The notes under the pieces: generated by a model
What the model saw: the letters and a program-made list of their open reading frames with translations, nothing else
Databases searched by the model: none
What the model was told of the DNA's origin: nothing
Shown: piece by piece, positions 1 to 51,564 of the stretch
How the letters are laid out: each line of letters opens with the position of its first letter
Numbering within the stretch: position 1 is the stretch's first letter
From: Deuterostichococcus epilithicus
Lineage: Eukaryota > Chlorophyta > Trebouxiophyceae > Prasiolales > Stichococcaceae
DNA length: 64,000 nucleotides
Reading direction: 5' to 3'
Assembly: GCA_033439295.1 (NCBI GenBank)
Contig: JAVTLE010000011.1
Location: 1,612,082-1,676,081 of the forward strand
Made by a program: the position numbers and the translations under genes

Positions 1-244
1 CACAAGGGCACATGCGACGCGGGCCATGCCTGCTCGTGCGATTGGGCTCGTGCGGCCAGGCGGGCTGCAATGGTGGCATGCGGCACCTGCGCGCAGCTCT
101 ACGCTGGCCTGTTCAGCACAATCCGATGCCGAGCGGTGCAATGCTGCATTATGTGATGGTCCGGCAGCTGGGCCAGCACGAAAGTCGGATGCGCTGCATC
201 ATCGCACTCATCTCCGTCTTACGCTTGCCGCTTGTCCGGAACAG

Positions 245-3200
245 GCGCACGGCCAAGGACTCACAGGGTGGCAAGCGGCAGCAGGGCGCGGGGCAGCACA
301 TCGCGCTGGCTGTTGCGCGTGGGCTGCACTGGCTGCACACCAATGGCCTCGTACACGGGGACCTGCGCCCCTCCAAAGGTCGTCCTTCCCTCCTGCTCGC
401 ACGCATCTCAATAGCAGGCGACTGTCAGCTGGGAAACTCAGCCGCCCCACTGCCCAGCGATGCACACATGGAGTCTTCCGGCACTAGACCGGCACTGTGT
501 TGTTCCTGTCGCGCTGCGCCATGCAGACTGTCCGGCTAGTGCGGCGCATGTCAACAGAATACGCTGCTCGAGATGTGTCATGCCTGTGCTCGCTTCTTGC
601 CGCAGTGCTGTTGGCGGACGGCGGCGCCGCCAGGTTGGCCGATGCAGGGCTGGCGGCCTTCATGCACACCGATTACATGGCGGCCAAGTCCAACCTTGGG
701 CCCTTCACCTGGACCGTACGCGCTCCAATGTCCCGCAGCTGCTGCTCGCAGCACTGTGGATTCTTCTGGCAGACCAGAGAGGATAGAGCCTGGATATTGC
801 CACTTGCTGTACCTCTCTGCTTGATGATGTGGCCGGCCGCATGTGCGGCTGCGCGTACGGTTTGGCTCCATATGGCACATGAAGGCGGCAGCTGCGCGCG
901 GCGCCAGGACATGGTGCAGATAGGGCCACCCTTGCCGCGCAGGCTCCCGAGGTGATGATCGAGGAGCCGGGCGCCTGGGGGCCGCAAGCAGACATCTACA
1001 GCTTTGGCATGCTGCTGTGGCAGCTGTGCAGCGGCAAGGACCCCGTCACCAAGCGCAAGCGCCACCTCGAGTGAGCGTGCTGGCCGTTAAGACCATAAGT
1101 GCCGCTCAAAGACGTCAGCTTGCTCATGACTGGTGCAGCAGCTGCTGATCAGACTCATGAGTCGCCCTCGACGGTGGCACTAGTTTCTGACAAGTCTGAA
1201 GCTGCAGCTATGCTGTGAAGGAGGCTTTTAACCCGATTCACAGCAGACGGGTGCCACCTCGTCAAGAACTTGCTTCACATTGTGCATCACTGCACCTGCA
1301 GGGGCACAGACGCCTGCCCGCGGCCAGTGGCGGAGCTGATTGTCAAATGCCTCGACCGCAATCCCGCCGCGCGGCCGACGGCCGCGGAGATCGTGGCCCT
1401 GCTGTGCCTGCCGGAGCACCAGCTGCCGCTGTCGCTGTGGCCGCGCCCGCAGGCCCGCCCGCCTGCCGGCGCCCCGGTGGGTATCTGCCTGGATGCAGGT
1501 GTTCGCATAAGCCCAGCCTTACACAGGGCCCACCCTCATCGCATGCCATCAGCCGCCGGGTTCAGAAACAGTGGATCTCCCAGGCATGGAGGATTGCTCG
1601 CAGAATGAGGTGGACTGATGTGCCAATGTGTGTAGGTGGAGGGTGGGAAGCAGACGGTCTGGGACGCGATTGCGTACGAGCTCTCCCCCAATGCCTTCTA
1701 ACTTTAGGTTGCATATCGTTGCGGCCCCAGACACCAGCCAGCCTACTCCGTGGAATGCTTGTGTATGCACTCGTCATTGCATGCTGTGGGTCCGCAGCTC
1801 GCCACCACACAGTGCTAGCATATGTTGATTGTATGCTTGTATGACAGCTCATCTGCTGCAGGACATGGGTGAACCTGTGCTACGGATCGAAGGAGGCGGC
1901 TCGCGCAGCAGGATACGTAGAGTCACCGGTGCGCAGCCGATGCTGCATCCCACGGCGCCTCTCGTGGCTGGGCACCCAAGCTCCTGGCTGCAAGCTGGCA
2001 AGGGAATGCATGATTACAGAGCTCTGTGCTAGACATGCAAAACCCTGCTAAAAGCCGCCCATCCCGACTGCAGGTCGATAAAATCCTTGACGCTCGAGGT
2101 GCGCAGGCTGCGGCCGTTTCTGTACCATTGGGCCATCTTGTCCAGCATACATACCACTGCTGCAGACTCTGCAGCGACGGCGTCTACCGCACAGCAGCAC
2201 CTCCTTTTGAAAGCATGTTGAAGTTTGCGGGCTGAGTCGCCTGCAGAATGGGACGTGTATGGCAAGATGATCGAGGTGCTGAAGGACGCCATTGCCCAGG
2301 CACGTGGTTCAACCTCATGTAGACCAGCACACACCACACGCATTTGCAGGAAGTGTCAATCATGTGCTGCAGTTTCTGGTGCATGCCTTCAAACCTCCAT
2401 CGTTCAGACGCGCCCAGGCACTGCCAGCCGAAAAGAACCTGTCAACTCTGCAGCCCCGCTGATGGCCTGCAAGCTTGCGAATGCTGCAGGAGAACGTTCA
2501 CACGCCGGGGTCGGCATCATATACAACCCTGATTGAAATGCACCGGGCCTACGGCTGGTGTGTCAATAGCAAGGTGAGGGTCTCGCTCCCACTGCATGCT
2601 GCCGCTTATGCGCCACAGACAGGTCTGGACCCATCAATGGTGCGGCCACCGGGGTGCGAGTCGCAATTTGACGGCGCCGTCTGCGGCAGAGGTCCTCTGT
2701 GGCCACACCCTGAGCATGCAGTGCTGTTGCTGCTGCTGCTGCTGCCGCCGCCGCCTGAGCCCTGCACCCTCAGCGCAGCTGGCGGGCACCAACGAGGAGA
2801 CGCGGGAGCAGCGTTTCCGACAAATGATGTCGTTGGAGTCGCTCCTGGCGCTTGTGCCGCCCAACTACAGACTGTTCGACAGCGACGAGGCAACAGCCTC
2901 GGTCGTAGCCGACAGCATGCGCCGCCTCAGCGTCGGCAGCAGCAGCGAGGTGTGGCACCGCCATGCTTGGCGCAGCAAGCCCGTCGCACCCTGCGCTTTG
3001 GATGCACCTGCACGGCTGCCCACTTCGCGCATCAGACCCTCGCCTGGCAGCCAGTGCGCGGCACAGTGTACAGGATTCATGCAGCTGCATGTGCACTCAT
3101 CGGTGGCCTGTTGACCTGTCGTGCAATGCGGTCAACGCCCCCGTGGAAAGACGACGGGTCTCTTCACACTCACTCAAATTGGATCCCCTGCAGCACTCCC

Positions 3201-4652
3201 GCCCAAATGAGCCGCCACCAGGGAAGGTGCATGCTGCCTTGGCCGGCGCCGCACCCTCAGGTGCCTCGTCCGACAGCCCATCGGCCTGCAGCGGCGGCAG
3301 CGGCGGCGCTTCTGGGCGCCCACCCAATATCGTCAAGCGCCTGGACCTGACGCAGGACCAGATTGATGCCATCCTGAGGGTGACCCACTCTCCGTGCTTT
3401 CTTTCTGCACCCGGCTGCCTGCCTCACTCACCGCGACAGGCTGTCGCAACAGGTTGCGCTGCGCAGCTGGCAGTCAAGCAGGTTGAAGCACGGCAGCGGC
3501 AGCAGCATGGGCGCGCCATCATCGCACAATGCTACTCTCCGATCGCTCTGCAGCCACACGAACGTTGCATGGTGCTCGCAGGAACGAGAGGACTTTCGAC
3601 GTCTGAACAGGCGGCTCGTGAGGGAGCGAGCCGGCCTGGTCAAGACGTTGCACGACTTTGCCCTTGGGAAAACCAAGGACCATGAAAAGGCGCTCGCTGC
3701 ATCCCGTGACCTGCGGACCAACGTCATGGAGGAGGTGCGCTTTTACATTCGCAGCTGCAGCTTGCAGAACCTCCTTGCTGCTCTCCCTGCTGCTGACGAT
3801 GTGGCGAGCTCTCCTGTTCCCAGATGCCCCTCGTGCACAGCGGCCTGCCTCTGGATTGTGCGATTGGGAAGGGCTTTGATGCTATCATCGGTGCTGACAC
3901 TGCCTTGCTGACATTGGTCGTTGTTTGCGGTGAAGGGTCGCTGCGTGTGGAGCATGCATGTGTACATCATCTGGGAGGTGCGCCGCCGCCATGACTACAA
4001 CTATTGACTGTCCAACTATTGCCTCTTTGGCGTGCCCCGGCAAACTACAGCAAGCCGCCTGCCTTGTGCGGCAGCTCCTCCAGGTATAAATTATTGAGAT
4101 TCGGGTTTGTTCCAGCGTGGGTCAGCATTTGCAGGGGATTGTTATAAGATCGCCAGAAGAACGCCATGTGCTATGCAGGTTCTGACGCCGTGGCAGTACG
4201 CCACCCTCGACTGCGCCGCCGCCCCGGCTCTCACGGATCCGGCGAGCTTCATGGACGATGTGGCGGCGACCGTCCTGGGCGCAGGAGCCGCCACCGACTT
4301 CACATGGCAAAGTGTCATCCAGGTGAGCGTGCTTCAAAGCAAGTGTCACGAACAGCGCTGCCCAGACGGGGCGAGGTGCTCTCTGGCAAGGCTTGGAGAG
4401 GGCGCAGCACAGTCATTTCGCTGTCCCAGGGGCACAAGATGAAACTGACCAGAACGTGCAGATGGGCTTCCAGTGTTCTGAAAAACCTCGTCAGAGACAG
4501 CTTAAGAGGAGTTTGAATGGTCAGGCGGTGTGCTGTGAATGTGAAAGGCCCCAAGAAGACCAGCCGTGTGATACTCAAATATAGTTTCATGCGTCATCCA
4601 GGAGGGCCACTGGGGAACCCTGCGCTGCGACGACAAGTTCATCGTCCGATGA
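245..4652 (+). CDS. Membrane-type pseudokinase family, paralogue A (5' end outside window)
   Basis: Fifteen exons are visible: 245-378, 606-715, 943-1070, 1302-1476, 1636-1673, 1862-1928, 2074-2098, 2247-2299, 2490-2573, 2779-2949, 3194-3379, 3582-3734, 3936-3977, 4179-4322 and 4602-4652. They give 519 codons plus a stop, and all phases agree with paralogue B. The anchor and the N-lobe lie upstream of the window. The visible C-lobe has HGDLRPSK where active kinases have HRDxxxxN, DAG instead of DFG, and an intact APE. So the metal-binding Asn and the DFG Phe are replaced, and phosphotransfer is unlikely. The C-terminal half has a conserved YGSKEAA segment, an acidic/basic helical block (LTQDQIDAIL, then an Arg-rich ERxDFRR helix), WEVLTPWQYA and the tail CDDKFIVR. 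The exon ending at 2299 appears to use a GC donor where B has GT. The helical block recalls the C-termini of some green algal bZIP-like proteins, but this is only a resemblance. The function is unknown. Confidence 0.8.
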
Positions 4653-5289
4653 TTGTTTGAAAATCCGCCGGCAAGATACGATGCCCGGCCGTATATGCTC
4701 TGCTCTTCAACAGAGTGGAGGTAGATGCCAGTGCGCAAGTAAGCTGCATTCCTGCTGGTGCTGTGTGATCGAAGGTTTTAGTTCTTGCATTGCAGTGAAT
4801 CCAGGTTAGGCGCCTGTAGGCTTATTTGAAGTGGGGTGCGGATTAAGCAACACAAGGGACAGTAGGCACGTGGTCTAGGATAAATATTGGACAGGCCGTG
4901 TGGTTTCCGCCGCCTTGTGTGTGATTTTCTCTCACACCTTCTACAAGTGGGAGTCGTAAGGATCAGGGTTTCCCGTGCACATGAATATCCTCTGGCTCGC
5001 TTGTGCAATTTAGTTTGTCACACTGCAATCACCATCTCAACCTCTACGACACTGCTCAACATTGCACATCGCACATTGATGATGATGTCCTCGTTGCTGC
5101 GGGACCCGCTGCAGCAGTCATCGTGGAGACCTGTTCCAACGTATCTGGGGCAGGCCCATTACCTTCATATTTGGCATGTCACCCCGTTCGCACAGCACGA
5201 CCGTCTCTCGCCATCAGCGAGTGGCGGCGGTCCTGGCCAGCTTGACCTGGCTGACAAGCGCAGCACATCGACTCGTCCAATCTGCCAGC
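4653..5289. other. Intergenic, between paralogue A and a pseudogene fragment
   Basis: This is the 3' flank of paralogue A, locally richer in A+T than the exons. I see no conserved coding segment, RNA gene or repeat in it. Confidence 0.5.
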
Positions 5290-5890
5290 ATGGCGGAGGG
5301 CCAGCCGCAGCTCCAGCTGTTGCTCATTGCGATGTTGTTGTGGCGGCAGCGGCAGCCGCCCTAGGCTTTGGCGTCGTGCACCTGTTTGACGGTTGGCTGC
5401 CCAACCGCTGCAGTGCCGCAGGCTGCGAGCGATGACGGCGGCGCGCAGGTCAAGTGCACCTGGTCATTGCCTGATCATTGCGAACAGCATTGCGGCAGGC
5501 TACCTACATTAGTGCATTTGCTGGCTCTTTCCTTGCAGATGATCTATGTCCACAGGCCTGCTGATGCTCTCTTTTGCTGCCGGATTCGACCATCAGCGCT
5601 GCACTGCAGTTGCAGCGTTGCTGCCAGGCGGCCTTGCTGAGGCTCATATGTTTCTGCGACTTGAACCTGTGCCGCCGCTGGTCGCACGCAGCAACAGGCT
5701 GTCGCGGCGATGGCGGCAGAGCAGCTGACCGTCCTAGCGCGCATGAACGAGGCCTTAGACACCACCGCGCTTATCCCGCCCGCTGGCCATTAAGCCCGTG
5801 TTGGCTAGCCTGGGCAGTCCGATGCAGGTGGTCAGCGGCGGCAAGACTCCGCCAGCATCAAGCCCTTCACGAACGCGGCGCCATCAGCTG
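5290..5890 (+). pseudogene. Decayed N-terminal fragment of the pseudokinase family
   Basis: An ATG at 5290 starts a segment like the first exon of paralogue D, but a frame change is needed to reach the hydrophobic helix (VVVAAAAAALGFGVVHL). Further on, 5707-5787 resembles the second exon of B and D (AAEQLTVLARMNEALDTTAL) and runs into a TAA. Around 5790-5890 the pieces KPVLASLGSP and IKPFTNA match LASLGG and KPFTEA of paralogue D, in different frames. No kinase lobe follows. At least two frame disruptions and one in-frame stop mark it as a relic, and its place between A and B points to a third tandem copy that has been lost. Confidence 0.75.
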
Positions 5891-6565
5891 TTCGAGGATA
5901 GCACAAGGAACCCGGTGCAAGGGAACCTCGGCGGCCGCCCAAGTGGGCGGGAGATGTCAAACGTCACATAACTGCTCATAGTCCCATAGTCCATAGACGA
6001 CCCCATGCCTCCACCTCCGCCGGCTTCCCATCTGGAGCAAGGGGTGCCGGCATCAGAAGACGACAGATGATGCCCGCCAGCTAGATGCAGACGAGAGTAA
6101 AGATCTCGCGTCGGAAGAGCGGAAGTCGAATCTGACCATGCTCGTGCCTTACCACACATTAGTGTCAACACAGAGACACCTCGGTCTAACCAAGTCGGCC
6201 GCCGGAGAAGCCGCTCATTTGACTAATCGACTGGAGTGGACACCCAAGGGAAGTAGCGAGTCGGGCATACCCCCGTGAACCACAGCTTGTCCAGCTTCAG
6301 CGTTCGTTGCCACGAGCATGCAGAGCAAAAGCACTTCATTTGTTTCCGGGTGACTCTGGTGCTAAAGGCCGCTTGGCCTCCAGATCCCAGTGTTCAGCCT
6401 CCTCGCCTTTCCGTGTTTACACGGTTGTGGTCAGCAGTTGCAGCACTGCAGACCTCACTGGACGCTCCAGAAGTCTTTCAGAACCTATTCCACTGTCCGT
6501 GCAGCGGCTCGTGGTGAAGGGCGTCACAGCGACACCTCTGGAGGTTGCGGCGCAACCCTTTGGCC
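5891..6565. other. Upstream region of paralogue B
   Basis: No coding segment is supported. The promoter and 5' UTR of paralogue B must lie here. No TATA box or other core element stands out by eye. Confidence 0.4.
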
Positions 6566-9500
6566 ATGCCAGACGTGCAGGGCGGTGGGTCCGCTGGCCA
6601 TACTCCGCACCTGTGGACGGTGGCCGCGGTGGCGGTTGCGGCAGGTCTGACTGGGTTCGGCGCTGTGTACTTGAGTGTGCGAGTGCAGCGCCGCGCTGCT
6701 GCCTCTGCTGGCGGCGGTGCTAGCGGCGGTGCCAGCGGCGGTGCCAGCGGCGGCGGCCGGCCGGAGGAGTTGTCATGGTCTGCCTCGTGGCCATGGTCCA
6801 ACCGCACGGCCTCGCGCCACGCCGCAGGTGTGCTGCATCTGCCACACACTTCCCTTGAGAATCCGGCGGCCTGCTTGTGCGAGGGCGCTGCTCCCATCTG
6901 CTGTTACACAGGGTGCGCTGACACATTTAGGAGGCCACGATCACTTGCTGCCCGCAGCTGCAGTAGCGGCGGCAGACCGGCTGGCTGCCCTGGCGCGCGG
7001 CAGCGAGGCCATCGAGGATGCGCGGCGGGTGCCACTGTCCAGCACCTCCAGGTTGGTCCTTCTGACGGGTCCTTTAAGGCCTCAGGGTCCTTTATCGTTC
7101 TACCGCAAGTGTTCCTGAGCAGCAGTTTGTCACGAGCCCGGAATGGGTACCAGCTCGCATGCAGGCACAGCTCACAGGAGCTAGTAACTGCTGTTGGTGA
7201 GGTCCAATGCAGGCACATGTTCCTCAGGCACGCATCGCAGGCATATACTTTCGAACGGCCGGAGAGTGTTTGATATCAGCAGTCGTGCCCTGCAGCCTGG
7301 CCGCGCTGCCGCCGCAGCAAGCCCATGCCGGCAATGGGGGGGGGCAGGGCGGTGCTTCCGCCGCGGCGCAGCAGCCGTTGACAGAGGCGGACCTGCCAAG
7401 CCTCAAGATGAGCACGCGCTCCAACGGCAGCCGCCATGTGCTGGGCGGCGACCACACCGGCCAGGTGCCTGTTGCTACAAAAGCAGCACGCCACGGACGA
7501 GTAGGCGCTTGAATGCTGTGGAGATATGCTCTGTCAAGATCCTGTCAAGAGATCGGCGTTCTGCGAGCAGACCGCCCCAATGGCGTCACAGACGCATTGC
7601 TGGCCGCCTCTGCAAGCCTGGGCCACAACAAGCTCGTGGCTTGCAGGTGTTCAAGGCGCTGCGGGGTGGGAAGGAGCCCATCGCGGTGCGCGAGTTCCAT
7701 TACTCGCTGTCGAGTGAGGAGGAGGCGCAGCTGAAGCGGGTGGCCGCGAAGCTCATGAAGTGCAGGGACAGCCACGTCGTCAAGCTGCTCGGCGTCGCGC
7801 CCATCCCTGGGCCTGCGGGCGGCTTCTACATCGCGGCACCGCTGTTCGAGCGCGGCAGCCTGGCGGACGCAATGGCAGGGCAGAAGCCCGGCGACCTGCT
7901 GTGGTACAGGCGGTGCGGGCCCCAGCTTTCCTTCAGTACTGCGTGGTCGTCAGCATCGGCACAATCACGACCCTGCTTTCCCCACGCTCCTGCAAGTGTG
8001 GGCTGGTGGCTCGTGCGTGTCTGGGTGCTGGTCGCTTGGGGTGCAGCAGCATCATGGCAGCAACATCATCTTGACAGGCGCATTTGCTTGGCGGCTCCAA
8101 GTGCTGTTGCAGGCCACAGTGAGCCTTTTCCTTTGGGACACTGCTGCCCCTGCTTGACCAGGCGCAAGGTCAGGGCATCGGGTGGCAAGCGGGAGCAGGG
8201 CGCCGGGCAGCACATCGCGCTGTCAGTGGCCCGCGGGCTGCACTGGCTGCACACCAACGGCATCGTGCATGGCGACCTGCGCCCCTCCAAAGGTGCGTGC
8301 GCCTTGTCTGGTCTGTGCACGACGACTTATGCACGTAAGGCTATACGCGCCAGCCTATGCAGCTTGCGGATCCTCAGGTAGAGCGATGCGGCGGTGCTGC
8401 CAGAACCCGCACCCTGTGCTGGCGCTACGTCATCGTCGTGGAGCGCAGCTGCTGTTTGCGCCCTCGCTGAGGGCGTCGCCTCTGCTGCAGTGCTGCTGGG
8501 CGACAACCGGAGCGTGAAGCTGGCAGATGCTGGGCTGGCGGCACTCATGCACATCGACTACATGGCCGCAAAGTCCAATGTTGGGCCATTCAGCTGGACG
8601 GTGCATTTTGTTTCATGGTCCACATGCTATCTCATGCATGAGCTGTCGTGAGGGCTGTGGTCAGTCAATGCAGGAGCCTCATTTCCTCTTGTCAATTTTC
8701 ACAGCTGTGCAACCACACCTGCAGCACAGTGTGGCACCTGCTCCTTTGTGGGGACGGCCTCTAGCAGAGCAAGCAATCTTGTCTGCAATAGGACTGACAG
8801 ACCATCGCAAGGCCTGCAGCCGCTTTGCCGGGTTGATTGCACAGGCGCCCGAGGTGATGGTGGGGCAGCCCGGCGCCTCTGGCCCACAGGCAGACGTGTA
8901 CAGCTTCGGCGTGCTACTGTGGCAGCTGTGCAGCGGCAGGGATCCCACCGCCGAGCGCAAGCGCTGTCTCGAGTGAGTCGCCGACTTGCATATGTGGAGT
9001 GTTCTGGCTGAGCTGAGGGAGCGCTCCGCCTTTGCCGGCGTGTGGCTGCAGCGGCAGGCTGCTCCCCCACTCAGTTTGGTCGCCCTGCTAAGACATTGCA
9101 GGGCACAAAGGGTAAACAGGAAAAGGCCAAAAAAAGGCTGTTAAAATAAACAACACCACGCCGTGCACATGTGTGAATGTCTCGCCACATCAAATCTTGT
9201 TCCCCCTTCTGCTGTCTGCTGCTCAAGGCTCTGCATCCAGCTGCACATTTGGGCACCTCCCCGCAGGGTGCTGTTGCAATGCTTTTCTCATGCCTCAGTT
9301 TCCTGGTCCACGTTCTGCCTTGCAGGGACGGGAAGCTCTGCCCACAGGCGGTGGCGGACCTCATCATCCAATGCCTGGACCGCAACCCCACCGCACGGCC
9401 GACCGCCGGCGAGGTGGTGGCCCTGCTCAGCCGCCCAGAGGGCCAGCAGCCGCCGGCGCTGCGACCGCGCCCCGCCTCACGCCCGCCAGCCGGCGCGCCG

Positions 9501-12500
9501 GTGCGTGAATCACTTTATTGCCGCCTGTCTTGCGCTGCGTGCAGACATATGTTACTCCGCGGGAGCGGGTTTGCACAGACAAGCTGGGACGTCGCGGGGC
9601 AGAGCACAGGCGCATGTTCCAGTCTTTCACAGCCCAGCACGACGCCTGAGGGTCTTCTCGCTGCAAACCACACAGCTTGCATGTGCTGCGTAGGTGCATG
9701 CTGGCAAGCAGGAGATCTGGGATGCCGTCACGTGCGTCTGCCTGGGCTTGCCCTTGCTCCAGAAACGACTTTCAGTGGTCCTTCGTGCATGTCACCTTGA
9801 CATTGATTTACACAGCAGCTGCGGCAGCACAGAATGTGCCATCATTCCGAAAGCACGCACTCTGGTCGTTGTACCTGCGTCCTGTGTGTGCGCAGAACAT
9901 GGGTTTACACGTGCTACGGCAGCAAAGAGGCCGCACACGAGGCCGGTTACCGGGAGTCTCCCGTACGCACAACTTTCTTCCTTTGGCCCTCCACCTTCCC
10001 TGCTGCCCGAAACATGCAGGAGACGTCCGCACTGCACAGGATCATGCCATCGCTCTGCCGCTGTTGTCAACAGGTCTGCGACGGGCTGAGTCTGAGGTGC
10101 ATGCTTCCCTGTTCGCCCTGCAGGTGGACATGATTCTCGAGACGCGAGGTGCGCAGGCAGCCTTTTTCTGTGCAGATGGCTTTGAGCACAAGGTTCTGTA
10201 TGGTTGCATGAAGCGTGGCGTTTGTCGAATAATGGGCTGCCTGCACGAGCTGCGAATCCCAACATCACTGGCTCGGTGTGCTGCTGGCAGAGTGGGACGC
10301 CTATGCTCAGATGATCACCGTCTTCCGAGACGCCCTCGCAGAGGTGCGCGGCCTCCCTTACCACACACCCCATACACAGCTGAATACAGCTGTTGCGTTT
10401 GCAGTTGCATCCGAGTCTGTGGCCTGACAACAGCTACTGCCGAATTCATAAAATTGCCGCCGGAGCAGGCAGAGCATGCTGTTTCATACAATTAGTTGCA
10501 ATAGTCATCGTCGGCATGCTCGCAGGAGGACGTGCACACGCCCGGCAGCAAGGCTTACAACACCGTCATGGAAATGTTCCACGTGTACGGCTGGGTGGTG
10601 AACTCCAAGGTGATGGCGGCCCACTTGCCTTAATCCTCCCCCGGCCGCTGCCCCCGCTTTGAAGCTCCAGGTTGCTGTGCAAGGCAAAGTCCAGCTCACC
10701 CCACTGAACGACATGGCCCCAGAGTCGCACCCTCATTTCCCAATCGGACTGCAACACGCTGGTGGCATTTTGCGATGCTGTTTCGGCATCTGCAACCCCG
10801 AAACCGTATGGAAACCCTGAGACCCTCAATTTCAAGCTGACACAAATGGCGGGTACGAATGCGGAGGTGCGGGAGGAGCGGTTGCATAAGCGCTGCCCTG
10901 GACCCTGACGGCCCTGAAAACTGACAACCTCCAACAAACCCACTGCAGCTTGCGGGCACGGCAGAGGAGGTGCGGGAGCAGAAATTTCGGGAGCTGGAGA
11001 CGCTAGAATCACTCAATGCATTGGTTCCTGCACAACCGGCGGGCTCCGACGGAGACGGCTCCGCCGCTGCCAGTGTGCGCTGCCTGTCCGGCACCAGTGG
11101 CTTCAGCCAGGTGCGGCCAGGCTGGACCCTCGCTGAGGCAGCGGACCGAAACGGTCAATCAACCGCACGCAAGCGCTTGGCAATTATTGTCCCCTGGCTC
11201 CTGTTGGAATGGCATGTGGAGATGACCGTGCCAACCAGCATGCCACGTCGACACTTCACACAGCTGCAACCCGGGGGCACGCTCGTCACATTTGCTTCAA
11301 GCCCGACGATGAGTCGTGCAGTAAGTGTCCTGCAATAGACGTGTGTCCACGAGTGGTTGAATCAAAGCATAGCCCGGTGTGTGCGCTTTGAGAGCCGTCT
11401 GTGCCGCCTCCCGGCACCCGATGTCTGTGCGCTTCGTCAGGCGGCGCTGTTGGCCCGTGACATGCACTGGCTGGGCTGGCTGACAGCAGTGTTGGGTGCG
11501 CATCTTGACAGCAACTGCTGCTGCGCAGAATTCGGACCCCAACCTGCCCAGGCGAGACCAGGCTGCCGCGTCCAAGGCTGCGGCGGCGGCGGCGGCAGCG
11601 GGGAGTACCTCGCCCGGCAGCAGCAGCGACGGCGGCGACGAGGCGGACAGCGTGGTGGCACGGCTGGGCCTGACGCAGGACCAGATCGACGCATTGCTGA
11701 TGGTGCGGCCCCATGGCAGATGTTTGTGATGTCGGGACATGCGTTGCATGAGAGAGCGCGCACAAGTATTATGGCTTCGCCGACCTGCATAAATGCCACA
11801 CAGGTGTTCCAGCCGCTGAAAGCACATGGCAGCGGTTGTTGCAGGCACACAGCAGCAGCTATCCGATGGCTGCCTGTCACAACGACTGTTGACTGCTGCG
11901 TCAGGAGCGGGCCGACTTCAGGCGCACCAATAGGCAGCTGGTCCGAGAGCGTGTGGGGCTCATTGGCCAGCTGCGCGACTATGCCGTCGGCAAGAGCGCC
12001 GACCACGAGAAGGCCCTGTCGGCCTCTGGCGCCCTGCGCGCCAACATCATGAAGGAGGTGCAGGCCCGCCCCGCTCCCATCCCTCGCCCCCTATCCCTTC
12101 GACAACCAATGACAGGCATCTCACCCGGCAACTGACGCTTACCACCCCCCTCTCAGCCCCCGTCACCACCCGGAATGAGCCCAAAGGCAGGGAGGCAGGC
12201 ATGCCACACAGCACCTCCAATGCCGCTTTTGGGTTGGTGCCTGCTTCTTTTGAGGACCGTGACAGCTGGAGGCCCATATCTTCAACCTGTCAAGTGGTCT
12301 CCTTTGCCGGTGGACGTCATCACCTGCACGTGCATGGTCCTTGCCGTAATGCTGGTGTCGCTGGTATTTCTGACCCCTGTGCCGCCATGTCCTGACTCCT
12401 GATATTCGACACTTTGACCCAGACAGTCAATGCTCCTGACCCTTACAGGGCCGAGCGCTGCAAGGCATGCACATCTATGTGATGTGGGAGCTGCTGTCGC

Positions 12501-13025
12501 CCTTCCAGTACGCCTCAGCAGAAGGTGCGGCAAGTGTTCTACACATATCTGCCGTCGTAGACGATTGAGGCTTTCAGCTGGTCTTCGGCCGCTGCAGCAG
12601 CTGCACCTGGGCAGCTGGTTGTCACTTGCCACTGTGACAATCCCGTCTGCTGTCTGCGGCACCCTGCATGATGCAGAGGGACGGTTTGGGGTGCATGGAG
12701 CCCCGCTGCAGGGCGCTGACGCCTTCGCTTCGTGCTTTTTGGAACCAGTGAACGCGTTCCCAGCCCTTACTGACCCGGTGGCTCTGATGGATGCGGTGGC
12801 GGCCAGCACACGCAGAAACAGCGGCCGCAAAACGGTGGCCACATGGCAGGGCATTATGCAAGAGGTGCGGCCGCTTTTCACAGGAGTCCGAGCCATCCCC
12901 TTGCAGCGGCAGCATGTCGTCTATGGCGCGTGCACAGATCCGTCTGCAAGCGTAGTGACTCGCCTTCTGCGGTGCAGGGTGACTTCCGCGAATTGCGATG
13001 TGACGACGCTTTCATAGTTCGGTGA
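6566..13025 (+). CDS. Membrane-anchored pseudokinase with helical C-terminal cassette, paralogue B
   Basis: Complete model of 19 exons, 776 aa: 6566-6827, 6958-7051, 7296-7464, 7647-7912, 8162-8292, 8491-8600, 8845-8972, 9326-9500, 9694-9731, 9896-9962, 10124-10148, 10291-10343, 10526-10609, 10949-11110, 11529-11702, 11905-12057, 12449-12524, 12749-12864, 12978-13025. The summed length is divisible by three. Residues ~16-38 form one hydrophobic helix (signal anchor), followed by Gly/Ala/Ser repeats. Residues ~165-445 have a kinase fold of TKL/tyrosine-kinase-like type: AVRE in place of VAIK, HGDLRPSK for HRDxxxxN, ADAG for DFG, intact APEVM, and YSFGVLLWQL in helix F. Lys, Asn and Phe are lost, so it is probably a pseudokinase. 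Residues ~446-776 carry the cassette shared with A and D, ending CDDAFIVR. Partner and role are unknown. Family membership is very sure; lack of catalysis is inferred from the residues. Confidence 0.88.
6709..6762 (+). repeat. 12-bp tandem repeat coding GASG units in paralogue B
   Basis: Tandem GGCGGTGCCAGC-like units in exon 1 encode Gly-Ala-Ser-Gly repeats just after the membrane helix. They probably form a flexible linker, and copy number may vary between strains. Confidence 0.8.
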
Positions 13026-13996
13026 CCGGACAATGATTGCTAAGCTGATGCGCTCCGCCCATTTCACAGCGAGCGTCATAGCACACGGCCGCATCACAAG
13101 CGCGCGGAGATCGAAAATGCATGTGAAACTTTCAGTTTTCAGATGAGTTGCAGGTGTATTGCGGCATATTGATTTGTGGGTGACGGTTCCTGATTTCATG
13201 GCCATCTCGAATTGTGCAAAACTCTGCTTCATGCTGAGGGCAGGGCTGTTCATTGCGCACGCATTTGAGATTTGGAGGTGTCAGGCTGAAGTCAGCTGAA
13301 GTCATGATTGACATTAGATTTCATTTGCGGTCTGTTTTTTCAAGTCTGCATCCGAGATGACGAGCGCAAATGAAACAGTTTGGGATACGAATATGTGTCT
13401 GCCCCGTCGCGGCGTGGCACCCATGCTTGCTTGCTGTCTTGCGGGCCGCACTGAAGTCCGGGTGCACTTCCATGCCAGCATTGCGATGTCCAAGCACCCG
13501 TCGTCATACTTCTCCACACACAGCAGGAGAAGCACTCCCGCGGGAAGTGGGTATTATCCCGGACACGTACGAGTATGTCGTACAGTCCGTCCCGTACGAT
13601 TGCCGGGGGATAGTGAAGAGTTGAGGGCGGCCCGTTGTGCAGGTGCACCACAGATAGGTGCTCACGATCCCAAACTGGCCGATCTGTACTGCAAACGGCA
13701 GAACGAAATTGGGGCGTCAAGTCAGCGCACTGCTGCAAGAGAGATTTGTGACACTCGTGTTTCCTTCACCACAGTGGCGTCAAAAGAACGCCTAGCTCCG
13801 TTCAAGTTGCCGCTGCTGCACCACGAGCCCATCAGGGTGCTGAAATTCGCGGCGATCTCGATGGTTTTGCCTATGCCAAGCAGCAACGGTCTGCAGGGAT
13901 CCAGTTGTGGCGTTTTGTGTCCAAGGGTGTGGGCTGCTGCACAGCTCCACAGTTTGCAACGTCGTTCGTAACCCCTCGACGTAATGTCTGGGCGGC
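13026..13996. other. Intergenic between paralogue B and fragment C
   Basis: Nearly 1 kb with no exon related to any neighbour. ORFs in it are short, lack family motifs and show no splice-consistent continuation. I see no RNA gene here. Confidence 0.5.
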
Positions 13997-14493
13997 ATGG
14001 CGGCGGGTCCGCTGGCCATGCTCCGCACATCTGCAAAGTTTGCCGCGGTGGCTGCATCGGGCGTTACAGGGTTTGGTGTCATGCTCTGGCTCAAGTGCGC
14101 ACGGAACCGCGCCGACGCCACGTCTGACGGGGTTAAAGGCAGTGCGGCGGCCAGCCACAGTTCATGCATTTCCGGCGCTGACTGATGACTGATCCAGTCG
14201 CTCTGGTGGACGCGGTGATGGCTGCCAGCACTTACAGCAGCGGCGGCAGAAGAAAGACGGCAGCGACCTGGCAGGGCATTCATGCAAGAGGTGCGGCATG
14301 TAGCTGCTTGCACATGCCGCACATAGCAAGCCTTTGTACCGGCAGCGTTTGTTCCTCCCCTGCTACCAATATCAGGGCAGGCTTGCGGAAGTGAGTCTCG
14401 CAATCTGTGGTGCAGGGCCAAAGCTTTGCGGGCCGGAAATGCGATGACGCACTCATTCCGCGGTGCCGGTTCACCGTCTGGTCGGCAGCATGA
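13997..14493 (+). pseudogene. Fragment C: internally deleted copy of the pseudokinase gene
   Basis: The N-terminal anchor exon (ATG at 13997; AAVAASGVTGFGVMLWL, close to the matching part of B) is followed at about 14162 by a copy of the penultimate exon of B (VHAFPALTD, then PVALVDAV, WQGI). All kinase and middle exons are missing. A seven-base direct repeat (ACTGATG) at about 14178-14190 shifts the frame inside the LTDPVAL segment. An extra C in WQGI shifts it again at about 14280. A last exon follows from 14416 (GQSFAGRKCDDALIPR), whose usual IVR-stop end is lost. The structure implies a large deletion with breakpoints near exon edges. Confidence 0.85.
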
Positions 14494-14951
14494 CCATGCT
14501 CTGCTGTTGCATCCATTGCAATTCAAATGGTGGTTATATATCAGTGGTAGCGAACGCTGGATGGGCTTGCCGTACTGGCTATACCTGATGTATCAGGCCG
14601 ACACACCTATGCCGCAAATTTATGGCAGTACGGCGCAAACTTTCTGGCTTGTCAAAGGTAGCATTAGATAAGATTTGAGTGGTCTTCGTGACACTCGTGT
14701 TGAGCAATCATAGCAGGTCCTGATTTTCAGCACTCTCACCTTGAAGGTTTGATGTGGGGGCCAGCAAATCCTGGTGCACAGTGCAAGCGCAATGCATGCC
14801 GCCAGAGCATACTTTGAAGCATGGTGTATTTGCAGCAGTGACTTCCCTGCCATCGCCTGTGTAAGCTCACACCTAGGTATAGGTGCACCAGGATTTACCG
14901 TAACAACATCCCAAGAAGGCCAGCCTACAGCTCAGCAGTGCCTAGTTCATT
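14494..14951. other. Intergenic 3' region, A+T-richer, with a spaced inverted repeat
   Basis: This lies between fragment C and the 3' end of ALG7. It contains a 12-bp inverted repeat (AATCCTGGTGCA near 14767 and its complement near 14883). The arms are about 105 bp apart, so a simple hairpin is doubtful. No coding evidence. Confidence 0.45.
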
Positions 14952-17622: not shown

Positions 17623-17895
17623 GCTAGCAAGCCAATGTGGGGCACTTCCGCAGATGTCAACGCTGCCAATTTGGTTAGTGCGTTGCTTCCGGAAGCTGAA
17701 TCGTAAGCAGATGACCTTACGATGGCCAAAAATCCTCGTGGGCTGCAGACACGCAGAGCAGACTCGGTTGCAACCGCTGCAGGTCACCAATTCGCAAAAA
17801 CGGTGCGCCAACGGCGTTCCTCGGGTCCGGAAAACATCCTGGGGTCGTCGACAAACTCCGACACACTGTCTAGAGTGCCGTGTCCCACCAAGCCA

Positions 17896-44085: not shown

Positions 44086-45503
44086 CCGGCGCTGCGAGGG
44101 CGTGGGCGCCTTTGCTGATACGCCAAAGTCGCACCAGAATCAAGAGCCATGAGGGTTGGCTGGCCTGCGGGGGCGAAGGCAGCCGTGCGGGGCTGCTCCG
44201 GCTGACGGCCGCCGATGTGTTGGCGTGCCTCGGGGTTTCCAGTGACGGCCGGGCGGCAGCGCGGCCACGACAGCAGCCTGCACAGCCTTGCACGGGGTGG
44301 GGGACCAATGGTCGTGGCGGCAGCAAGAACTTAGCTCGAGTTTGATAGCTGCCTTGGTCTTGGTCCTCGCCCCGCGCAGGTGTAGGCCAGCACACCCTCA
44401 CACCCTTCGGACCGTGTCGGCTTGGCTGATGCCGCCAGCATCTGGCGGCGCAGTCTCGCACAGCGTTCTCCCTTTCTGTGATGCATTCATGCAGGCACTC
44501 GTGGTCAGTCGGGAAGTATAGCAGAGACTGGGCCCTGGCTTCTTGGCAGGTTGGTGGCCCCGCTTTGCAGGATGTTGCAGCAGACACATTTTTTCTGGAT
44601 TCCGATGCGCCTCGGTCTGTTGGTATCCTACATCTACATGGGGGTTCTCGGCGCAGCATTTGCATCGCGCAGTTGACGCTCCCTTACGGTGGCAACTGCA
44701 CGGGCGATCTGCTTTAGACTTTCAGATCACTTTTTGGTCGGAACGCAACCCAATCCGGTAGCCTGGCTTTCCCAGGGCTTTTAGAGGCTGCCTCCTCAGC
44801 AACTTTTCAGTAAATGCCTCCTGCATTCGATGTCACCCTGCTTGCCATGTGTCTTGTAATTTACTCGCTCTTGATCTCTAAGTCTCATTGCATTTTGAAT
44901 ACCGGTCAATGCTTCACCACAAAAATGCTGCTGCAAACTCCACGATTTCTGCCGGCACTTTCTCCACTGCAAATTAGCATCTTAGGACTTTCTCCACTGC
45001 AAATTAGCATCTTAGGACTTTCTCCACAATTGCACTTACACTCATCCTCTTCCTGGGCCATCAAACTGTAGCAGTTCCATTCTCATCCATCCTTCCATAT
45101 TGCAATCCTGATCATTCCCATGACATGCACACTGGCTGAGCTACAACTCCACACGACACCCTCTCCTGTCGTGAGGAGGTGCAATGCTGGGCGCCCATGC
45201 CCTGCCCTAAGCTCCGACAGCCGCCAGCGCTTTCCAGACCACACTGCCTAATATCTCTCAGGCTATTTTCGTGGGAACCACAGCCAGCCAGTGGCACGCC
45301 TTTCCCCCCTGTTCCTGCGGGCAGCTACACAGCTGGAGAGCTGCCTTTCAGTTTGCCTAATGACAGCTCTACGTCTCTCGCCCAAACATCTCAAATACTG
45401 GCGGCTATGCCGCGGCCAGGGTTGTGCCCTCTTCGACGCGCCCCCTGTGGCGTTCTCCCCTTGTTCTTCTTCTTCGTTTCTTCTTCTCCCGAAAATTGCA
45501 GCG
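44086..45503. other. Convergent intergenic region
   Basis: 1.4 kb between the stop of the RRM gene and the stop of paralogue D. It is A+T-richer from ~44760 on and contains a tandem repeat (separate entry). No exon or RNA gene is recognised. Confidence 0.5.
44957..45027. repeat. 30-bp direct tandem repeat, 2.4 copies
   Basis: A 30-bp unit beginning ACTTTCTCCACTGCAAATTA occurs at 44957-44986 and 44987-45016 without mismatch, then again for 11 bases. It is noncoding. Confidence 0.9.
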
Positions 45504-48500
45504 TCACCGAATGATGCGGTCGAGGTCGCACTTCAGTTTGACGTAATCGCCCTGATGCAAAGACATAAAAGCAAGACGCTTGCGCACCTCAAATCGACCT
45601 TTGCAATGCATTGATACGCATGGACATCAGGAAACTGAAATGAGATTGATATTCTGGTTGCCGTCCCCACTCAACGACCAACAAGCCGGAACTGACCTCT
45701 TGCACGATGCCCTGCCACGTTGAGGCCGTCTGCCGCCGGTCGCCGCTGCCGGCCGAAGCCATGTTTGCAACCTGAAGTCGACAGCGACGCATTTCAGCTT
45801 GAGAATGTCCAGAGGCGTATGCCTCTATCAGGATGGCCATGTTTCACGACGTCAGACAGCGACGGCGAGACGGCAGCATGACATCTGCTGCTTGCATGCC
45901 TCCAGATGAAGGATGGCACCTCATCCACCAGCAGCGTCGGGTCGGTCAGCCCCGGAAATGCCAGACATTCAGCGAGCGCAAACTGCCACGGCGAAAGCGC
46001 TTCCCACATCGTCCACATGTGCATTGAGTGGAGCACACGGGCCTGCACACGTGCACACGCAAGGGTGGGGTCGGCCACGCGGCCATCTGTGTTTGACATC
46101 ATGGAGTGCGTCGCTGGCATGGGGACTTGGGGAGCAGCAGCAGTCAGCAGGAGAGCAGCCCTGTCTCGTAAATGCCTTGAGTTGCATCACAGCGTTTGCA
46201 TTGCATAGCATCAAACTTGCATCGCAACATCGCAACGCAGCACAGGCAGTGCACACCTCCTCGAAGATGTTGTGCCGCAGCGCAGCGGAAGCCGCGAGCG
46301 CCCTCTCGTGGTCAGCCGACTTGCCGAGCGCGAAATCGTGCAGCACCTGTGCATGGGTTTTGCCAATTGTGTGACGGGAGGCCGTGGGCTGTCGTGGCAG
46401 ACGCAGGGGCGTCGGGACCCTTTGCCCCCACAGCCCAGCTGCAGGAGTCTCCTGCCAGGCTTGGGCTCGGCGGCAGTCCAGCATTCGGGACATCGGGACA
46501 CCACACAGGACAGCGGACATCTGCCACGGCAGCGAGCGGCGCAGCAGGAGAAGCAGCACCTTCACGAGGCCGTTCCTCTCTCGCACTGTGTCCTGCTGCG
46601 TCCGCTTGAACACGTCTCGTGCCTGCAAGGCACGAGCCTGCGTCGGCAGCGGCGCATGGCGCCCTGATCCAGCAGGCACCAGCTGCGGACGCTGGCTTGC
46701 TCGACACACGTAGCAGACAAGCGTCACACGAGCGCGGCTGGCGCGGCAGTGCCCCGAAGGTGCCAGAGAAGGTGACGCACGCACCAGTACAATGGCTTGT
46801 ATCTGGTCTGGCGTCAGCTGCAGCCGGCTGGCGATGTTGTCCTGCCGGCGGCGCGCCGACTCGGCGCTGTCGTCGCTGGCGACGCTGCCGCTGCCTCCGC
46901 CAGATGCTGCGGCGTCGGCGTCGGACGTCGGCGCCATCGCCACGACAGACTGCGCACCCTGCAGCAGGACGGGCATCCAGCTCGGAAGTCAGGTGGCTGC
47001 CCGACCTGAGCGAATGCAAAACAACATGTGCAATGGGCCATCGCAGCCTGGCGCGGCGGCTGCGACGGCAGCCGCGCCCTAGCAAGGCCAACAGGACGAA
47101 CACCGCTCCAGCACGATTCCTCATGGACTGCAGCGCACCCACCTGGCTTCCCCTGGAGCTACGGCGCGTGCTGCCGGCGGGCTCGGTGGCGGCTGTGTTG
47201 GCCTCGGGCTGTGCCAAGCTGACCAGCGCCTCCAAAGACTCCATCCCTTTAAATCGCTGCTCCCGGACCTTTTAGATAAATGATCAATTTGAATATGATT
47301 TCATTAACCTCTGTGCTTTTCTTCATTTTATATGATTAATAGATAGCAAACGTTTGCTTCCCGGAGGGTTTCCCTCTGGCGCGCACGCCCTCTGGCGCGG
47401 CCCAAGCCACTGGGTGCTTATGCCCAGCAAGGCCGCGGAGGCGCTGGGTGCGCCGCGGAGGCGCTGGGTGCGCACCTCTGGGAAAGGGGGGAGGGGAGTN
47501 GGGGGCCGGGCGGGCAGACAGGCACGGCAGGTGGGGGAGACAAAGGGGGTCGGGGTGGTCGCACCTCGTCTGCCGTCCCCGCCAGCTTGAAGTTGGTATG
47601 GCTGTGGAAAGCCTTGTGCAGCTCCAGCAGGCGCTCGTAGGCCTTGGAGCCCGGAGTGCGTACATCCGGCTGCGGGCCACCCGTCAGGATGATGTTCAGG
47701 GACGTTTCAGGACATCTTTTAAATCACTTGGCGCTTGTAGGTTGCCAGTCTCCACCTCGCAAACTGACTGGGCTGTCTGCCGGCTGCCGCGCGGAACACG
47801 GATAGTAGAATACACGGAAAGCCCTGGCGCTCCCAACCGCATGTGGCGTTGCAGCAGCGGCAGCCAGGGCCTCGAGGGCTGCTGCGCCGCCACGTGGGCA
47901 AGCAGGGGTGCGGCATTGTTGCAGCTGGGCACGCCATGGGGACGCAGGGGAAGGCTTCAGAGCGACACCAACAGCGCTCACTGCACCTGCACACCTGTTT
48001 CAGCGCCCGCCGGAACTCGGCAATGAACTCTGCATATGCGTCCCACTCCCGTACCTGTTGCTCGCAACAAAAGGGGTCCCTGTCGGCTTTCGCTGCAGTC
48101 GTACGGACATAGCGCAGCATGGCCAGGCCCCGGGGTGACAACAGCCTGGATGACAGCATGTCACAGGAGCTCCCCACGTCGCTGTTTCCAAAGCCACCGG
48201 GCAGCAAGTTGTGCAGGTGCCTCCGCACCTCCAATATGCGCTCAACCTGCACGCACCACATACAGCAGTTGCTCTGCTGTTGATGCCCACAAAGAACGAG
48301 CAGCGGTCTGGCCCTGTAATCGGGAGGGTGACGGATCCATGCACAACAGAGTGCAGGGCACCAGGCGATCAGGAGCGCTATAGACACGGCACAGGTTCAG
48401 AATGTGGGCGGGGCCTCACAGGACTCTCTTCATAGCCAGCTGCATGGGCCTTTTCTCGCCCGCCGTAGGTCGTGTAAACCCACGACCTGCCATTCAGCAT

Positions 48501-51500
48501 GTCCAAAAATGAGACGAGCCCTCGACGATGAGCACAATGCAATCACAGGGAGGGCGACGACGGCCTCTGAGTGACAATGCACATGACACTCACGTTGCGG
48601 CGTTCCAGACGCCCTGCTTCGATTTCTCTGCCCCGATCTGCAGGCAGCAACGCGCTCTTCGCCAGCCAGGTTGGCGCACATAGAGCCTCGCGCATTGGTC
48701 AAAGCACTGACGAGTCGCAGGAGCATACGTTCGCAGATTAAGCAATGTGCCGTGCTCACCGGGGCGCCTGCCGGGGGCTGGGTCCCGCGCCGTGGGCGCA
48801 GCGCCGGCGGGAGCCTTTCCTCTGGCAAATTGAGCAGCGACACGATCTCTCCTGCGGTGCGAAGACATGAGGCGGCAAGCAGGTCAGAGCGCAGCAGCAG
48901 GCCTGCAGGTGGGAGCCGTGCGATGCAGCGTGCCAGCACCAGGATCGGCAGACTGTCCACACGCGTCGCTCGGCGCTCACAGAACCGGCCAGGTACGCTG
49001 CTGAGCGCACCTGATGTTGGCCGCGCGTCAGGGTTGCGATCCAGGCACTGCATCAGCAGGTCGCTGACGGCCTTTGGACAGAGGTCGCCGGGTCTGCAGC
49101 GCCAGATTCGCTGATGTCAGTATGGCCTGGCCCCTGAAATGCGAGCCTGGGCTCAGTATGAAATTCGACAGGACAAGCGCACCCACACCAACGCTTCCAG
49201 CAGCTCTAATGCTTCAGAGTCACTGACGTGGCAGCTGCCCACCTGACATAGCGGCGGCGCTCCGCCAGAGGGTTGTTGAGCGTCAGCAGCTGCCACAGCA
49301 GGACGCCAAAACTGCAAGGTTGCAGGGTTCATTATCAGGCCGCAGCAGCATCCGGCCAGACTGTCATGCATGTCAAAGACCTGCACAATCGCCAAACTTT
49401 GAGTATACTTGACCTTGCCGGTCCCCACCTGTACACATCTGCCGCTGGAGTGGCCGGCCTGCCCCACATCACCTCCGGCGCCTGCGGGCGCGACAACTCG
49501 TCACCGCTGACACCAAAGGGCGAAGTGGAGCAGCTGTGAGACCGTTGCACGGCCTGCCGGACAGAAGGAAGGCTCCTCTGCTGACTCAGCTGGTGCAGCA
49601 GCGTCTGATGCAGCAGCGCCCGCAGCGCTGGCGGGAGGTCGTGCAGCAAGACCGTGCGGTCGCGCACCGTCCACGCGAACGGCCCCACGTTGGTCTGGGC
49701 TGCCATGTAGTCGTGGTGCACAAACGCTGCCAGCCCCGCGTCGGCCAGCCTGGCCGTGGCGCCGTCCCCAAGCAGCACTGCGCGACCAGCGGAGGCTGCT
49801 TGACAGGTGGGCTGCGGGTGGGGCGGAGTGAGCAGCCGGGACAGTGGGGAGGGGGGCGCTGATGACCAATGACCGAGTGCACGATGCTGGGTGACTGAGA
49901 GACTCGAGCCAATGCACATCTGCCCGGGTGGGTGCGGGCTGCCGGGGCACCTTTGGAGGGGCGCAGGTCCAGGTGCACAATGCCATTCACGTGCAGCCAG
50001 TGCAGCCCGCGCGCCACCGCCAGCGCCACCTCCTGCGCCCGGCCCTGCACACGCTGTCCCCCGGGACGCACCCTGCGGAGGCGCCCACACACGATCGTCA
50101 GCCGCACGGCAAGCGTGACACGCGGTTGCGCTCTGTGCTCGGACGGCCAGCAGGCATGGCTTCCCATGCCGCTCATACAGTCTCCTGCCGACGAGCTCTG
50201 CCCTCAGCTGGCCTCACCCAGTGAGCCTGACGACGCAAGCCACTGCAGCATATTGAGCTTCACGAGCCCAAAACTCTGGGTTGAAGCTTCCACGGGGCTC
50301 GCTCACCCCTTGTACCACTGGTACTGCCCCGCCTGCAGCCCCTCCAGCACGTCCGCCAGGCTGCCGGCCTCGAACAGCGGCGCCGCAATGTAGTAGCCGC
50401 CCCCGGGCCCAGGAATCGGCGCCGCCCCCAGCGGCCTGACCACGCCGCACGTTTCACCGCAACCTGCCAGCTTGGCCAGCAGCCGGTGGAAATTTGCGAC
50501 CTCCGCCTTGTTCAGGTCGTAGCGGAACTCGCGCACTGCGATGGGGTGCGAGCCGGCGCGCAGCGCCTTGAACACCTGTGCGGGAACACGTCGGTGAGGG
50601 GTCGGGAAGTTGCGTCCGCTGCAACCAGTCGTTGCACTACAGGGCATCAAACAGACGAGGACTGCTGCTTGGTGCTGCTCTGCTGCTCTGCTGCTCCTGT
50701 TACAGGCACAGACCCACGGCACCGCAGCGCCCGCGTGGTGCAGGTGTGTCAGCGCTCCATGCGCGTTGCAACATGCACGCATGTGACTCGAGGCAGGGCA
50801 GATAACCTGGCCGGTGTGGTCGCCACCTAGCACCCAGCGGCTGCCGTTGCGCCGCGTGCACATCTTCAGCACCGGCAGGTCCGCCTCCGTGAATGGCTTG
50901 CTGCCTTCGGCGGCGGCGGCGGCGGCGGCGGCGGCAGCGCCGCCACCGTCCGCCGCCACCGGGCCGCCGAGGCTGGCGAGGCTGGGCTGCGCGTGCAGCG
51001 GGATGTGCGCCGCGATCTCGATGGCGTCGTTGGTGCGTGCCAGGGCGCTCAATCTCTCCGCCGCCACCGCCGCGGCTACGCAGCAACATCGATGAGCGCT
51101 GGAAGCTGCATTAGTGAGCGGCGCAGCGGGAGTCCCGCTCCGGCCGCCGCTCCAAGCGGCCGTCGGTGTGCAGGGAACGAGCTGCTCACAGGGTGTGGTG
51201 TCTGAATTGCACTGGTACTCGTAGTGCAGGCGCTACCGAGATGCGGCATGCAAGACACAAGTAGCACAAGACGCAGGGAAGTAATCTGCGAATGCACGAA
51301 TGCCAAGCCATCACACGGCAAATGGGACTGTCACCCACCAGCGGCCTTCTTGGCGGTCGATCTCCGCATCCAGGGCCACGCGAAGCCAAACGCCAAATCT
51401 GGCCGCAGGCCGACGGCGGCGCCATTGTCGGGCGCGGGCGCCTGCGCCCGGGCCTGGGTGTGCCAATACACCAGCACAAATCCTGCAGCTCCAGCCACCA

Positions 51501-51564
51501 CAGCAACGGCGGCAACCTTCCCGGCCGTCAACGGCGGAGTTGGGGCGGCTGCGCCACCCTCCAT
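45504..51564 (-). CDS. Membrane-anchored pseudokinase with helical C-terminal cassette, paralogue D
   Basis: Complete model, 21 exons, 761 aa: 51339-51564, 50807-51075, 50307-50575, 49951-50072, 49668-49777, 49429-49481, 49243-49311, 49011-49093, 48760-48851, 48594-48637, 48420-48486, 48229-48246, 47995-48054, 47565-47669, 47143-47268, 46785-46958, 46560-46622, 46257-46346, 45920-46042, 45697-45771, 45504-45551. Anchor helix at ~14-35 (VAAVAVVAGAAGFVLVYW). Kinase-like fold with AVRE for VAIK, HLDLRPSK for HRDxxxxN, ADAG for DFG, intact APEVM. The cassette has TPGSKAYERLLELHKAF, LTPDQIQAIV, HDFALGKSADHERAL, WEALSPWQFA and the tail CDLDRIIR. It is the most diverged paralogue, inverted 32 kb from B, and differs from A and B at many intron positions. 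The exon at 48229-48246 is only 18 nt. Function unknown; probably noncatalytic. Confidence 0.88.
47432..47471. repeat. 20-bp tandem repeat in a paralogue D intron
   Basis: Unit GCCGCGGAGGCGCTGGGTGC is repeated exactly twice. Nearby, position 47500 is an N within a G-rich run, so the local sequence may be imperfect. Confidence 0.85.

Follow-up and report, generated by a model that had tools for sequence, protein, structure and literature searches.

Three putative TKL pseudokinases of a green alga share a C-terminal region with bZIP-type proteins of the same genome

What is the helical cassette that follows the kinase domain in three paralogous genes of Deuterostichococcus epilithicus, and what might it do there? 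The genes, A, B and D, were read from a stretch of 64,000 nucleotides (contig C10, positions 1612082-1676081; hereafter the window) of a genome assembled in 21 contigs and 46.8 Mb. A first-pass annotation had described them as membrane-anchored pseudokinases joined to a cassette that it did not recognise. Our analysis suggests a source for this cassette, which contains the C-terminal region of the genome's own bZIP-type proteins. We hold with high confidence that A, B and D are paralogous TKL pseudokinases, predicted to have a hydrophobic helix at the N-terminus and, in their C-terminal third, the non-DNA-binding region of a bZIP protein. The parts are known and their combination is new; this architecture was not found described in those portions of the open-licence literature that were searched.

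To obtain the gene models, exons were joined at GT/GC-AG junctions after their reading frames. The spliced models each form one open frame, with 768 amino acids over 18 exons for A, 776 over 19 for B and 761 over 21 for D; for B and D, the coordinates and lengths agree with those proposed at first pass. Gene A, previously called partial, has the same architecture as B and D and is complete in the genome, because its first three exons were found upstream (locus L001), with the start 1,177 bases left of the window. Introns of the three genes are 107-418 bases long, and 54 of the 55 are GT-AG, the other being GC-AG. Using a profile made from B and D only, a spliced alignment to the DNA of A recovered 16 of A's 18 exons with exactly the same boundaries; the two terminal exons were each off at one end, and several spurious micro-exons appeared. 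The splice phases had been said to agree exon by exon. This holds at 11 of 28 intron sites for all three genes, which match there in column and phase, and at 5 of 28 for two genes, and fails at the remainder. The pairwise ratio of nonsynonymous to synonymous substitution (dN/dS) over the full coding sequence is 0.31, 0.45 and 0.38, and 0.36-0.40 in the kinase domain, values as for genes under constraint. Together with the complete spliced frames, they bear out the view that A, B and D are real genes and not chance open reading frames (ORFs). We dropped the idea that the cassette is the more constrained part, because its lower dN/dS comes with a dS of 1.1-2.8, close to saturation, and its proportion of nonsynonymous differences (pN) exceeds that of the kinase. 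Between A and B, the proportion of synonymous differences (pS) is 0.39 in the kinase exons versus 0.71-0.73 in the cassette parts, and the kinase part of these two genes may have been homogenised by gene conversion.

All three proteins follow the same domain order, as first described: a short N-terminus, one hydrophobic helix, a linker, a TKL-type kinase domain and a helical cassette of ~330 residues. The cassette itself consists of part 1 (YGSKEAA and TPGSKAY), a low-complexity stretch and the tail (LTxDQI, ERxDFRR, WExLSPxQYA and CDxxxIxR). The N-terminal helix, previously noted in B and D, is present in A as well. Its hydrophobic segment begins 12-15 residues from the start, with a best Kyte-Doolittle mean over 19 residues of 1.8-2.4, and appears membrane-anchor-like, insertion and topology being predicted from hydropathy only. 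As almost no sequence lies N-terminal of this segment, the earlier suggestion of a membrane receptor is unlikely; the sizeable extracellular domain that precedes the membrane helix of a receptor kinase is not there in A, B or D. A plain single-domain kinase over the full length is ruled out by the Pfam match, which spans only residues 153-406 of the 768 in A. The only other Pfam family listed at an expectation value (E) up to 10 in A, B and D was Nodulin-like (E 0.25, one member), and the NCBIfam matches shown for A fall inside the kinase region.

The kinase domain matches PF07714 in all three proteins, with a best E of 4e-32, a likeness to TKL kinases of the CTR1/Raf-like type. Among the best 60 of 2,331 profile matches in the PDB, most were tyrosine kinases, and the plant TKL kinase CTR1 was included. 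In each protein the beta-3 Lys is replaced by Arg (IAVR) and the catalytic-loop Asn by Lys (HGDLRPSK or HLDLRPSK). The catalytic-loop Asp is kept, DFG reads DAG with its Asp kept, and APE is kept. None of the three has the complete residue set of an active kinase, i.e. the beta-3 Lys, the catalytic Asp and Asn, and the DFG Asp. The TKL-like fold with lost catalytic residues was recognised correctly at first pass, and A, B and D are, judging from these residues, probably inactive pseudokinases.

We searched the genome with the cassette of B and obtained 22 matches at E up to 10, of which 20 are inside the window. The two outside it were weak (C15:752142, E 0.058; C14:666877, E 0.33). These two, with 16 stretches around kinase matches, made up a set of 18 loci with 4,582 ORFs. 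Ranked by a profile built from the tails of A, B and D, the same two loci (L002 and L003) came first in this set (E 8.4e-4 each), ahead of exons near kinase genes. Upstream of both tails lies a bZIP-type basic region, '...EKNRRAQARFRSRQK...' and '...EKNRRAQANARRRKK...', and the tails scored 59.5 and 57.6 bits over their length with a profile of six kinase tails. Further tail matches led to L023, L024 and L027. Each has a bZIP-type basic region upstream, which makes five of five non-kinase loci with a profile-confirmed tail. As a reciprocal test, the five bZIP tails were made into a profile and run against 7,186 ORFs from the window and all non-bZIP loci. Kinase-cassette exons took ranks 1-11 (E 1.2e-4 to 0.1), seven of them with E below 0.01 and gene B of the window among the 11. 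The next ranks include a frame of L017 (E 0.26) and an exon of D (E 0.39), and shuffled ORFs yielded one match, at E 0.21. Tails of both kinds share the pattern LTxxQ...R...R...LR.N...E...LTPxQxA...P...D. On the strength of profile similarity in both directions over about 110 residues, the last ~110 residues of the cassette are judged homologous to the C-terminal region of the bZIP-type proteins. These proteins have a basic region, with zipper-like heptads located in four of the five loci, and no kinase was seen alongside, whereas A, B and D show the reverse. Four of the bZIPs also share a 'SPAGKRLA'-type ('GSPAGKRLA') motif upstream of the tail, positioned like the TPGSKAY helix. None of the five tail-bearing loci is among the 17 bZIP_1 matches of the genome, three of which (L020-L022) were found to have no tail. 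Additional weak tail matches occur on C5, C4, C11, C9 and C19; the weak matches L028 and L029 proved to have no significant tail match.

The first-pass annotation had likened part of the cassette to a bZIP. It chose the right family, as the tail homology indicates, and the wrong element: the Arg-rich ERxDFRR helix aligns with the C-terminal tail of the bZIPs and is ruled out as a basic region. Inspection of A, B and D by eye showed neither an N-x7-R basic region nor a heptad zipper, which excludes the Arg-rich helix as a DNA-binding bZIP; bZIP families were also absent from the Pfam listing of the three at E up to 10. A cleaved transcription regulator, as first proposed, would thus free a fragment in which no DNA-binding part is visible.

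A, B and D turn out to be one branch of a larger family, with at least 12 kinase-plus-tail genes found at five sites in the genome by profiles and a spliced aligner run with stiffer penalties (Table 1). These counts are minimum values, since the genome was searched exon by exon and only the best candidates received a score. In A, B, D and L019a, kinase and tail fall within a single spliced model. For the remaining eight genes, the kinase and then the cassette model lie on one strand with a gap of 0.27-0.76 kilobases (kb); the kinase model of L026a is partial, and the L026b cassette comes in two pieces. A hydrophobic helix preceded by a Met is present in 10 of 11 assessable members (7 of 8 relatives plus A, B and D), against a background of 82 in 400 random 2.6-kb stretches for a like scan. 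The upstream sequence of L009 has no such helix, and that of L026a was insufficient for it to be counted. Eleven ordinary TKL models from neighbouring matches showed no tail match within the fetched stretches. At C7:311-331k (L007, L008), three TKL kinase models stand in tandem, also with no tail match.

The eleven ordinary TKL models align in one tree with the family (22 rows, L026a left out). A branch (91/89; present in 86% of 200 bootstrap trees) separates the tail-bearing rows from the rest, and A, B and D group together (100/100) on a stem 1.3 changes per column long. Four kinase-domain intron sites, phase included, are common to all tail-bearing members that cover them. The nine tail-bearing relatives (loci L005, L006, L009, L010, L015, L019, L025 and L026) read HLD or HFD instead of HRD, i.e. 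they are non-RD, and HRD is present in 7 of the 11 tail-less models. The name 'family of pseudokinases' suits A, B and D but not these nine, which retain catalytic residues where covered: the beta-3 Lys in 8 of 8, HxD...N in 9 of 9 and DVG in 8 of 9, the ninth being L026a, whose partial kinase model reads no such motif. From these residues, the pseudokinase state is predicted to be a local degeneration special to A, B and D. Compared with TKL kinases in general, the three add an N-terminal hydrophobic helix and a bZIP-type tail, and lack the beta-3 Lys and loop Asn.

Several observations weigh against the architecture and homology proposed here. The reciprocal test is not fully independent, because the L023, L024 and L027 segments were cut out by a kinase-based profile. 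The bZIP label is given by the motif, N-x7-R plus heptads, and is supported but not proven by Pfam. With the best family taken for each locus and exons joined at splice sites in register, bZIP scores fall below the cut-offs (E 5.1e-4 for L002, 3.5e-5 for L003, 5.3e-3 for L023 and 1.3e-3 for L024), and single exons give E 0.01-0.33 or no bZIP match. The join of basic region and zipper in L003 requires a GC donor, another coiled-coil model outscored bZIP in L002, and in L027 the basic region alone was seen and no zipper found. The splice-site joins weakened the Pfam support for L023 and L024, and our confidence in architecture and homology, still high, is slightly lower on this account. In part 1 of the cassette, the link to the bZIPs is significant only through L015: a profile of the SPAGKRLA motif finds the L015 cassette at E 0.0019 and L019a at E 1.2, with no match to A, B or D, and the bZIP loci contain nothing that a profile of 12 kinase part-1 segments scored as significant. 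For the tail, Pfam and the PDB offer no clear relative: the PDB matches to tail and part 1 were all weak (best E 0.29, 0.23 and 0.024, the last to a COMMD-like protein), LTXXQ of Pfam appeared at E 0.014 in 2 of 8 tails, and three part-1 segments had no Pfam match. A scan of viral contigs gave 43 pattern matches, none of which was confirmed as a relative. In a tree built from tails only, a single kinase clade is neither recovered nor rejected (approximately unbiased test, p-AU 0.239). Finally, the N-terminal helices are Ala-rich and moderately hydrophobic, and in the relatives they are unspliced to the kinase.

A functional parallel is found in land plants. There the C-terminal region of TGA bZIPs mediates dimerisation and contact with NPR1, and DOG1, which resembles a transcription factor but cannot bind DNA, is described as a possible modulator of TGA activity (PMC9360754). 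The TGA (group D) layout described there, a bZIP with a helical C-terminal interaction domain, resembles that of the tail-bearing bZIP-type proteins, and DOG1 resembles A, B and D in having a C-terminal type of domain without the bZIP (PMC9360754). Chlorophytes are reported to be without TGA factors (PMC6508501). The stretch 'LTTRQAAR' of TGA3 resembles 'LTPxQxAR' of the tail. Membership of the tail in the DOG1/TGA group is not supported: an exon-by-exon search of the genome with Pfam DOG1 (PF14144) gave 0 matches, no TGA chains came back when the tail profiles were run against the PDB, and the TGA3 segment scored 2.9 bits with the tail profile, within the range of shuffles, which reached 8.2 (hhalign gave P 0.036 over 17 columns). 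By analogy, the tail may work like the TGA C-terminal region, though it is not classed as such.

From the observed architecture, tail homology, residue loss and family, we infer a mechanism that we put forward tentatively; taken whole, from the identity of the proteins to tail docking at the membrane, it falls somewhat short of an even chance. The tail would be an interaction or sensing module common to the kinases and the bZIP factors. Through it, kinases at the membrane could bind the bZIP factors or compete with them for the same partner, and catalytic family members could phosphorylate the bZIPs. Having lost the Lys that positions ATP and the Asn that binds metal, A, B and D would act as tethers, scaffolds or decoys. 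By analogy with TGA and DOG1 only, a membrane kinase with a bZIP tail might hold bZIPs or their partner at the membrane. A more specific form, in which homotypic tail-to-tail docking controls the bZIPs and A, B and D are membrane decoys that keep bZIPs or co-regulators out of the nucleus, we regard as rather unlikely.

Receptor-like kinases and IRE1-type membrane kinases are single-pass membrane kinases with a C-terminal output module. The family described here would resemble them in having a single-pass kinase and a C-terminal output module, both predicted from sequence. It differs from them in having almost no N-terminal ectodomain and an output module derived from a transcription factor instead of an RNase or a bare kinase. 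Membrane kinases ordinarily reach transcription factors via cascades. If the proposed mechanism is true, a kinase joined to the C-terminal module of a transcription factor would be a short route from membrane to gene, with the dead members A, B and D as natural competitors. The shared tail would also offer a handle on the regulation of the tail-bearing bZIPs.

The strongest rival, possible yet on balance unlikely, is that the tail is a sensor of small molecules or proteins used separately by bZIPs and kinases that never meet, A, B and D being sensors with a dead kinase as an allosteric scaffold. The tail does adjoin two unrelated partners, as sensor domains often do, and the TGA C-terminal region is described as enveloping palmitic acid and possibly binding heme (PMC9360754); on the other hand, no ligand-binding signature is known for the tail and homology to the TGA region is not supported.

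It is improbable that A, B and D are decaying duplicates of an active kinase on their way to a relic state. Relics do adjoin B, as first noted, in the form of fragments (Table 1). The match at 5686-5922 contains three in-frame stops, and an N-terminus-like hydrophobic stretch was seen by eye in an ORF at 4884-5435. The stem of the A/B/D clade is also long. However, the three full-length frames have intact splice sites, the changes at Lys, Asn and DAG are identical in all three, and the dN/dS values, in the kinase domain as over the whole sequence, argue against decay. More improbable still is an unconventional mode of catalysis in A, B and D, which would make 'pseudokinase' the wrong name. WNK and CASK have been described as kinases active in such ways, and A, B and D keep the loop Asp and the DAG Asp, with the APE, DVYSFG and RPT segments kept or nearly so; yet the changes of beta-3 Lys to Arg and loop Asn to Lys occur in all three, and the relatives retain both residues where covered. 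We dismiss as very improbable an artefact of modelling, with kinase and cassette exons on separate transcripts, since a continuous frame links both in A, B and D and all 12 genes, spread over five sites, have the kinase before the tail.

Table 1. Coordinates of genes A, B and D, the relic fragments and the kinase-plus-tail family (window positions unless a contig is given; k, thousand bases)
Feature	Position	Strand	Description
Gene A, window part	1..4652	+	spliced ORF, 768 residues; three upstream exons within window positions -1177 to -41
Gene A exons, first set	245-378, 606-715, 943-1070, 1302-1476, 1636-1673, 1862-1928, 2074-2098, 2247-2299	+	
Gene A exons, second set	2490-2573, 2779-2949, 3194-3379, 3582-3734, 3936-3977, 4179-4322, 4602-4652	+	
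Gene A cassette	1636..4652	+	bZIP-type tail from 3194; aligned with B, D and bZIP tails
Gene B	6566..13025	+	19 exons, 776 residues, spliced ORF
Gene B exon 1	6566..6827	+	start codon, single hydrophobic helix; best Kyte-Doolittle 19-residue mean 1.8
Gene B kinase domain with linker end	7296..9500	+	IAVR (Lys lost), HGDLRPSK (Asn lost), DAG, APE kept; Pfam PF07714
Gene B cassette part 1	9694..11110	+	YGSKEAA and TPGSKAY segments; aligned with kinase relatives
Gene B bZIP-type tail	11529..13025	+	LTQDQI, ERADFRR, LSPFQYA; CDDxxIVR end
Gene D	45504..51564	-	21 exons, 761 residues, spliced ORF
Gene D exon 1	51339..51564	-	start codon, single hydrophobic helix; best Kyte-Doolittle 19-residue mean 2.1
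Gene D linker and kinase domain	48760..51075	-	IAVR, HLDLRPSK, DAG
Gene D cassette	45504..48637	-	bZIP-type tail from 46958 downward
Relic fragment	5686..5778	+	linker after the hydrophobic helix (A residues 71-100); inside the relic first placed at 5290-5890
Relic fragments	13994..14290	+	N-terminal helix fragment 13994-14140 and tail fragment 14185-14290
Kinase-plus-tail genes	C10		A, B, D
Kinase-plus-tail genes	C14:167-184k		L019a, L019b
Kinase-plus-tail genes	C14:587-617k		L009, L010a, L026b, L026a
Kinase-plus-tail genes	C18:498-518k		L005, L006
Kinase-plus-tail gene	C3:1806k		L015

The window holds other features. Another kinase gene, MAPKK-like by eye, lies on the minus strand at 58121-60069, with PF07714 matches at 59416-59904 and 58976-59116. 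Frames at 52400-53208 on the same strand look by eye like thiamine phosphate synthase (TenI/ThiE type). On the plus strand, SR-rich and RRM-like frames at 22666-23592, also read by eye, are probably a splicing factor. A 225-base unit is present in two tandem copies at 21831-22267, with 82% matches.

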